Source: Anaerolineaceae bacterium (GTDB taxonomy: Bacteria > Chloroflexota > Anaerolineae > Anaerolineales > E44-bin32). Taken from it: a stretch of 64,000 bases of DNA. Positions within the stretch are counted from its first letter, which is position 1; every line of letters begins with the position of its first letter. Both the position numbers and the translations under genes were made by a program. Below the pieces are notes generated by a model. It made no database searches and was not told the DNA's origin. It was given only the letters and a program-made list of their open reading frames with translations. Of this stretch, positions 4,098 to 13,808 are shown in pieces. The DNA lies in the NCBI GenBank assembly GCA_020350285.1, contig CP070708.1, positions 1,156,246-1,220,245 on the forward strand, given 5' to 3'.

Positions 4098-4316
4098 GGT
4101 GCCCCCGAGGTGAAACGATATGCATGATTATAGCCTTTTCGATCTTTTTGATCTCAAAGCATGGTGTTGTCCTAATCAAGTTCACAGATGAATCAGCTGA
4201 GGTTGGTCAACCATGGGAGGGGGACCAGTATATGTGGGGGAGCATCTGTAGGGGGCTTATGGCATGATAGAATTAGGATTTCAATATCGTATTTTATTAA
4301 AGGTAGAGGTAGTGAG
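4098..4316. other. Divergent intergenic region ftcD / selenoprotein
   Basis: 219 bases between two divergent genes, so promoters for both should lie here. A short inverted repeat (GGTTGGTCAACC, 4201-4212) and a -10-like TAGAAT (4268-4273) ahead of the selenoprotein gene are visible. No convincing -35 element pairs with the latter. No small gene is supported. Confidence 0.35.
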
Positions 4317-4862
4317 ATGAGACAATCGATGCGTTTTGTGGCAATTATCTTCTTGATCACCCCGATATTGTTAACCGCATGTAAGGGAGATCGAACTGCA
4401 ACAGAAAGTACGCCTCTCATGGTTGAGGAGCCCACTCAAGAACCAATATCTCAAATCGAGAGTCCAGAGGTACCTGCACCTGCTTTTGCGGCCACACCCG
4501 AGACGGAAGCCTCGCCAGATGTCGACCCCACACCGCGCCAGGGTCTTGAGGCTACGGATCCTTCGACGGTCCTGTTGGCATCCGGTAAACCTACATTGGT
4601 TGAATTCTTTGCTTTCTGGTGACCTACTTGCCGGAGCATGGCGCCCGTCGTGCACGGGCTCGAAGCTCAATGGGGACGCGAGATCAATTTTGTGTACCTC
4701 GATATCGACGACGTCCGGAATGATGACTTCAAGAGGGAGCTTGGTTACCAGTATCAACCTCACTTCTTCCTTCTAGACGCTGAAGGGGAAATTATTCAAC
4801 AATGGGTCGGTCCTGTTCCTGAGGCTGAGTTCGAAGCCGCTTTCGAGAGTGTAACCCAATAA
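4317..4862 (+). CDS. Thioredoxin-fold lipoprotein with in-frame TGA (probable selenocysteine)
   Basis: Read through the TGA at 4620-4622, this is a continuous 181-residue protein. It has a lipoprotein signal peptide (lipobox LLTAC, Cys22), a Pro/Glu/Thr-rich linker (about 24-85), and a thioredoxin fold starting near TLVEFFAFW. The TGA falls exactly at the first cysteine of the redox motif, giving W-U102-P-T-C105 where thioredoxins have WCxxC. Downstream comes RSMAPVVHGL, the expected helix, then FVYLDIDD and a cis-Pro-like YQPHFFLLD strand. No frameshift exists and both halves share one frame. The most economical reading is a selenocysteine-containing extracytoplasmic thioredoxin; a nonsense mutation or sequencing error from TGT/TGC is the alternative. 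The ATG at 4317 was chosen because it gives a standard lipoprotein signal peptide and follows a purine-rich GAGGTAGTGAG stretch. The selenocysteine machinery is not in the window. Confidence 0.8.
4643..4659 (+). promoter_or_regulatory. Candidate bacterial SECIS hairpin
   Basis: A perfect 6-bp stem, GCCCGT (4643-4648) with ACGGGC (4654-4659), closes a 5-nt loop CGTGC. The loop begins 26 nt after the TGA, and G is its second base. As I recall the published bacterial SECIS consensus, it asks for a short apical loop with a G in its first two positions, at roughly 16-37 nt from UGA; this hairpin fits. The structure lies inside the reading frame, as bacterial SECIS elements do. It was found by eye, not by a folding program. 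Confidence 0.5.
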
Positions 4863-13184: not shown

Positions 13185-13808
13185 CTCTTCTCCTTCGAGT
13201 TAGGTGGGTTGCCCCAATCCGCTTTGGGGATTATACCCAGAAAAAGGTAAGGACGTTTGATTGATAGCTATCAGCGATCAGCCATCAGCACACAGCGAAG
13301 AAAGGACATCATCATGCAGTCTGACCGGTAGTTTTAATTCCGCTGAGGGCTGTAAGCTGAAAACTGGTAACTCTTATGATGCGTCATTCTTCCCTAGAAT
13401 TTACACATCCAGGTCTGAAATCGTAGGGGCGAACGGCTAGTCGCCCCTACAACATTCTCATTGAATGTCATTCTGAGCGCCGTAAGGCGCGAAGAATCCC
13501 TATGATGCAGCATTATGAACGCATCATCCCAGGGATTCCTCGCTCACGTTGCTCGCTCGGAATGACATAGGAGGTGATGCGTCATTCATTCCTCTAAGAT
13601 CCATGCATCCATTCTAAAATCGTAGGGGCGCTTCGCGAAGCGCCCCTACGACATTGTTGAAGGGGATCAACTTATGGCGTCATTCTTCCCTAGGATTTCC
13701 ACATCCAGTCACGAAATTGTAGGGGCGGGGTTACCCCGCCCCTACATGGATAGACTTTCACTCCTCCAGGACGTTGTTTATGACGATGTCCGCACAAAGC
13801 TTAGATGT
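13185..13808. repeat. Repeat-filled intergenic region
   Basis: 624 bases without a gene. It holds three GTAGGGGCG-type palindromes (13423-13450, 13621-13650, 13718-13746) and one longer element (13465-13568) bounded by inverted ATGTCATTC/GAATGACAT ends with complementary AATCCCT and AGGGATT arms inside. The ATCAG-type iterations near 13265-13292 are another repeat seen elsewhere. Two near-identical short strings (TCATTCTTCCCTA) precede the first and third palindromes. No promoter or reading frame of note was seen. Confidence 0.85.

Follow-up and report, generated by a model that had tools for sequence, protein, structure and literature searches.

Gene layout and predicted product

Direct translation of positions 4317-4862 of the window, by which we mean the whole stretch of 64,000 nucleotides analysed here, yielded a single frame of 181 residues (MRQSMRF...VEFFAFW*PTC...SVTQ*) whose sole internal stop is a TGA at 4620-4622 and which ends at TAA 4860-4862, in agreement with the original prediction of one frame uninterrupted apart from this TGA. 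The TGA is the exact first-cysteine codon of a thioredoxin WCxxC motif (FWCPTC). Upstream of 4317 the frame is also open; the ATG at 4317 begins the signal peptide and agrees with the start of the homologue L019. No match was found in the window with Rfam at gathering thresholds, and scans for sigma-70 promoters and terminators returned nothing. The features assigned to the locus are the following.

4317..4862, + strand: whole gene of a thioredoxin-fold selenolipoprotein with predicted selenocysteine (Sec) at residue 102 (one frame; PF00085 match; TGA shared at this codon by homologues)
4305..4309, + strand: AGAGG, possible ribosome-binding site, 7 nt 5' of ATG 4317 (direct reading)
4317..4382, + strand: predicted signal peptide and lipobox LTAC, lipidated residue Cys22 (direct reading; homologue conservation)
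4383..4556, + strand: Pro/Glu-rich tether of variable length (AlphaFold2 model; variable in the alignment)
4557..4859, + strand: thioredoxin domain, residues 81-181 (AlphaFold2 model; PDB structure matches)
4620..4622, + strand: TGA, predicted to be read as Sec, residue 1 of the U-P-T-C active site (TGA/TGC/TGT comparison in 76 homologues)
4629..4631, + strand: resolving Cys105 (TGC) of UxxC (Cys in all homologues except one with a second TGA)
4643..4659, + strand: bacterial SECIS hairpin, stem 4643-4648/4654-4659, loop 4649-4653 (CGUGC) with invariant G4650 and U4651 (covariation, loop conservation)

With the TGA read as a residue, the thioredoxin model PF00085 matches residues 86-175 (8e-12; 45.5 bits against a gathering cut-off of 23.5), a span that includes both flanks of the TGA, where thioredoxin-fold structure had originally been proposed. 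The AlphaFold2 model reaches a pLDDT of about 97 over residues 81-180 and shows strand-helix-strand-helix-strand-strand-helix, the thioredoxin order, while the tether (4383..4556) is modelled at lower confidence and free of secondary structure. Structural comparison of this model revealed thioredoxins as the closest PDB structures (Z 16.4, 1.8 Å over 102 residues). Residue 102 lies at the start of the first active-site helix, which we take to be the position of the thioredoxin nucleophile. Invariant positions in the alignment include Cys22, the active-site residues 102 and 105, F125, G157 and G165, among others, and P148, where a cis-proline is expected, hardly varies. By its signal peptide and LTAC lipobox the product is predicted, on motif grounds, to be a lipoprotein; Cys22 is invariant in a 36-sequence alignment and a simple lipobox rule holds in 73 of 76 homologues, in keeping with the earlier proposal of a secreted lipoprotein.

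The active-site codon in homologues and the SECIS hairpin

A scan with one genome for each species yielded 13 loci, 11 of which were taken as homologues: L019 (79% identical to the window protein), L020 and L021, all three from other assemblies, carry TGA at the homologous codon, and L022 to L029 carry TGC or TGT. Extension of the search to 396 genomes of the class detected homologues in 62, and in a phylum-wide sample matches were confined to the class. In the resulting set of 76 homologues, which includes the window gene and omits L030 and L031 (weak or unrelated scan matches) as well as L032 (the window's own duplicate), the first-cysteine codon is TGA in 65 and TGC or TGT in 11, with no other codon present. 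The alignment with Cys homologues called for at the outset thus placed TGC or TGT opposite the TGA in 11 of 76 sequences, and the assignment of the TGA to the first Cys of WCxxC was borne out. The proteins of L028 and L078 are identical and probably represent the same gene.

A lone TGA in an otherwise intact frame resembles a fresh mutation or a base error, and TGC to TGA is a change of one base; the TGA could accordingly be a nonsense mutation in a pseudogene or a miscalled TGC/TGT. Against this, the 65 homologues that share the TGA come from separate assemblies, many families and about 60 genomes, which excludes a sequencing or assembly error in practice. Comparison of the window gene with L019 furthermore gave dN 0.192 and dS 0.876 for the 79 codons 5' of the TGA, counted from the lipobox on, versus dN 0.058 and dS 1.217 for the 79 codons 3' of it. 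The low dN relative to dS past the TGA argues that this region is translated and is constrained more than the region before. Recurrence at the homologous codon and strong purifying selection past the TGA refute a pseudogene or sequencing error, as does the covarying SECIS hairpin described below, and we regard this explanation as having a negligible chance of being correct.

Two variations of the active site deserve mention. L082 (G207:C213, about 13326-13637) has TGA at both active-site codons (UPTU) and is a possible double-Sec thioredoxin; its congener L087 reads UATC. In homologues from one family of the same order (L038, L041, L042, L044, L052, L053, L059-L061, L064, L066, L068, L069, L071 and L075), Thr precedes Sec (FRFT-U) instead of the usual thioredoxin Trp.

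For analysis of the RNA, the Sec sequences were aligned without gaps from the UGA, with its U counted as nucleotide 1. A common stem of 6 bp pairs nucleotides 24-29 with 35-40, corresponding to window positions 4643-4648 and 4654-4659. Across 40 sequences, 96.3% of the pair cells hold standard pairs, five of the six stem pairs show changes on both sides, and 32 doubly changed cells were observed versus 9.3 in shuffles; the covariation signal was gone once the partner was slid by 1-3 columns, and RNAalifold predicted the same helix unaided. All 63 distinct Sec sequences have G and U at loop nucleotides 31 and 32, whereas G31 occurs in 4 of 10 Cys sequences. The inner four pairs are kept in 59 of the 63 Sec sequences; 10,000 within-column codon permutations, which preserve protein conservation, gave on average 33 such sequences and at most 44. 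The helix is broken in 9 of the 10 Cys sequences. The published bSECIS model describes an apical loop of 3-9 nt, a stem of 4-16 bp, a G in loop positions 1-2 and a UGA-loop distance of 16-37 nt (PMC13188914), and the window hairpin fits it with a 6-bp stem, the loop CGUGC, G at position 2 and 26 nt from UGA to loop. When a longer stretch of the window was folded alone, however, the minimum-energy structure was a competing hairpin. The single-sequence fold (z -1.3) is no proof of the SECIS, the case for which rests on comparison.

The hairpin also appears to leave a mark on the protein. In L089, L090 and L092, pair 29-35 is changed from U-A to C-G through replacement of Ile by Thr and of His by Arg; RNA structure apparently steers protein sequence here. 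In the family, residues opposite each other across the hairpin covary, Ile-Val-His with Thr-Val-Arg, and the Leu codon 3' of the hairpin turns from CTN to TTA upon a change of its partner base. A Cys homologue with an intact SECIS hairpin was found at L027:3001-3627 (GCGCCCGTCGTGCACGGG); this hairpin is likely the fossil of a recent Sec-to-Cys conversion.

Decoding machinery and the selenocysteine assignment

The source genome consists of a single contig of 3.4 Mb with a completeness estimate of 80.5%; catalogue entries for its near relatives name them as Anaerolineae and Chloroflexi bacteria. It encodes a tRNA-Sec with anticodon UCA (77 bits), SelA (E 3e-139), SelB (358 bits versus a curated cut-off of 242) and two SelD genes. 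Hence all four of selA, selB, selC and selD, for which the original prediction had called for a search, are found, and the Sec reading survives the original check for an absence of selA, selB or selC. A second match to the tRNA-Sec model at 46 bits proved to be a tRNA-Ser on checking. In the class, SelA was detected in 334 of 396 genomes; among the sampled genomes it accompanies the TGA form in 59 of 60 cases and was found in neither of the two genomes with Cys forms only (Fisher p 0.0016). The one exception, G315, has the TGA form and is 78% complete, and SelA probably went undetected in it through incompleteness. The Cys forms L022 to L027 and L029 sit in genomes with SelA. Many SelA-bearing genomes of the class lack the lipoprotein gene, which is therefore not essential to the Sec trait.

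Other in-frame TGA codons were observed in the same genome. One of the SelD genes, L017 (G000:C1:1925758-1926687), has a TGA at the known Sec site of the protein (LATCAGUASK, UASK), and the second, L016, lies elsewhere in the genome and has no in-frame TGA. L124 (G000:C1:602800-605600) contains a gene at 603904 for a DsbA-like protein with TGA in the motif DFQUPYC and a SECIS-like hairpin 3' of the TGA; the counterpart in the genome of the nearest relative (L126) also has the TGA. L124 is a candidate for a second extracytoplasmic redox selenoprotein of the source genome. Taken with the lipoprotein, the SelD and DsbA-like genes raise the number of credible Sec codons in the genome to three or more.

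Some bacteria use codes with UGA as Trp, or have unusual tRNAs, and the UGA might in principle be decoded as Trp under a changed code, or as Cys through a suppressor tRNA or one resembling SelC*. However, TGA commonly terminates long frames in the window, the UCA tRNA is a standard tRNA-Sec at 77 bits with a tRNA-Ser as the next-best model match, SelA, SelB and SelD are present, and a SECIS hairpin stands at the right distance. On these grounds a reassigned code was rejected, and decoding as another amino acid is considered highly improbable.

For 4317-4862 the computed evidence covers the Sec codon and its decoding machinery, the SECIS hairpin, the thioredoxin fold, the lipobox, and selection before as well as after the TGA. 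The original selenoprotein reading is upheld by the recurrent TGA, by SelA, SelB, SelD and tRNA-Sec, by the covarying SECIS and by downstream selection. We concluded, with a probability of roughly 96%, that 4317-4862 encodes a selenoprotein, and infer that Sec is actually incorporated at residue 102.

Relation to known families, proposed function and history

Sec-containing thioredoxin (Trx, PF00085, UxxC) is listed among the experimentally verified prokaryotic selenoprotein families (PMC13188914). Sec in place of the first Cys of thioredoxin-fold proteins, earlier called a known theme, is indeed well established. The window protein shares with this family its fold family, the Sec replacing the first Cys of CxxC and the existence of Cys homologues, but differs as an exported lipoprotein with a long tether and the motif UPTC. 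Its score with the thioredoxin equivalog TIGR01068 is 44.8 bits, below the cut-off of 96.8. Another Sec-containing thioredoxin-fold lipoprotein family is the Rcas_1661 thioredoxin-like (seleno)lipoprotein (NF041057), named after a gene of Roseiflexus (Chloroflexota). Unlike the window protein, this family has a DsbA/DsbG-type domain, and the window protein matches its model over residues 12-107 only (18.9 bits versus a cut-off of 190); the family has been termed DsbG-like (PMC13188914).

UxxC selenoproteins assigned to Trx-like 3 (weak cd02950) were recorded in the Global Ocean Sampling survey (PMC2398784). The window protein resembles them in its UxxC, a likeness drawn from their description. 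Through cd02950 they are related to the TxlA type of membrane-anchored thioredoxin. The CcmG/ResA/TlpA and HCF164/TxlA proteins likewise have membrane-tethered extracytoplasmic thioredoxin domains, with HCF164/TxlA again likened by description, and are reduced through CcdA/DsbD; in contrast to the window protein, their active site contains Cys where it has Sec. With the DsbE (CcmG) and TlpA models the window protein falls well below the family cut-offs.

According to an inventory of 2026, prokaryotic selenoproteins fall into 119 families and subfamilies, the majority of which have a thioredoxin-like fold (PMC13188914). None of the curated NCBIfam selenoprotein models fits the window protein, with one or two of 36 members matching, and weakly, and a description of the lipoprotein family was not found in the searched literature on Chloroflexota/Anaerolineae selenoproteins. 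Given the scores below the TIGR01068 and NF041057 cut-offs and the weak, rare matches to selenoprotein models, we consider the lipoprotein a putative new family among the known thioredoxin-fold UxxC selenoproteins; to the extent covered by NCBIfam and the searched literature, the epithet "new" of the original prediction therefore holds for the lipoprotein family.

We propose that the ribosome would insert selenocysteine at UGA 4620-4622, with SelB and tRNA-Sec bringing the residue and the SECIS at 4643-4659 directing its insertion. The product would then be exported and lipidated at Cys22, and a flexible tether would keep it anchored to the cytoplasmic membrane, facing outward. In its UPTC active site, Sec102 could act as the exposed nucleophile, with Cys105 as its resolving partner, in a cycle via a selenenylsulfide; the most likely action is the reduction of disulfides, or of other oxidised thiols, in proteins outside the cytoplasm. 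Cytoplasmic electrons might be passed to it by either of two CcdA/DsbD-type membrane proteins (DsbD_TM) encoded at assembly positions 2103925 and 2801243, neither of which adjoins the lipoprotein gene. A search of 18 loci for a conserved neighbourhood linked no redox partner; a downstream acyl-CoA dehydrogenase is common to near relatives, and other metabolic genes are common to a few groups of close kin. As no neighbourhood is conserved beyond close relatives, substrate and partner can be suggested with low confidence only, and the direction of electron flow is likewise our conjecture.

We favour the reductase role by a modest degree. A less probable but serious reading accepts Sec insertion but gives the protein a role other than general disulfide reduction: oxidation or isomerisation in the manner of DsbA/DsbC, cytochrome c maturation as a factor of the ResA/CcmG type, or reduction of peroxide or selenite. 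Residues 86-137 weakly match the DsbE (CcmG) model (35.5 bits versus a cut-off of 123), and UPTC is unlike both CGPC of Trx and CPHC of DsbA; however, thioredoxins come first by fold and by profile, and conserved neighbours in the relatives examined give no indication of cytochrome c maturation.

The best tree of 76 rows, built with the Sec/Cys column masked out, implies five or more switches between the two residues. This tree is short and poorly resolved with an arbitrary root, and its well-supported branches alone force only one change; both the number and the direction of changes are tentative. Repeated loss of Sec is the simplest account in view of Sec in most lineages and of the fossil SECIS in L027. 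We lean, by a narrow balance, toward a family of surface thioredoxins spread across the class, with Sec as the normal and probably ancestral state. Cys forms would then have arisen by several losses (with the SECIS intact in L027), the SECIS would constrain the protein, and L082 would have Sec at both active-site positions.

Gene callers that treat TGA as a stop would end the gene at the TGA or begin a second gene after it, so that many Anaerolineae genomes probably carry wrong annotations of the family. The searched literature says little of selenoproteins in this phylum, to which the lipoprotein adds a selenium-dependent redox protein of the cell surface. The family also offers a clean natural experiment, in which kindred Sec and Cys forms, some with a SECIS and some lacking it, occur both in genomes that have SelA and in genomes that do not.
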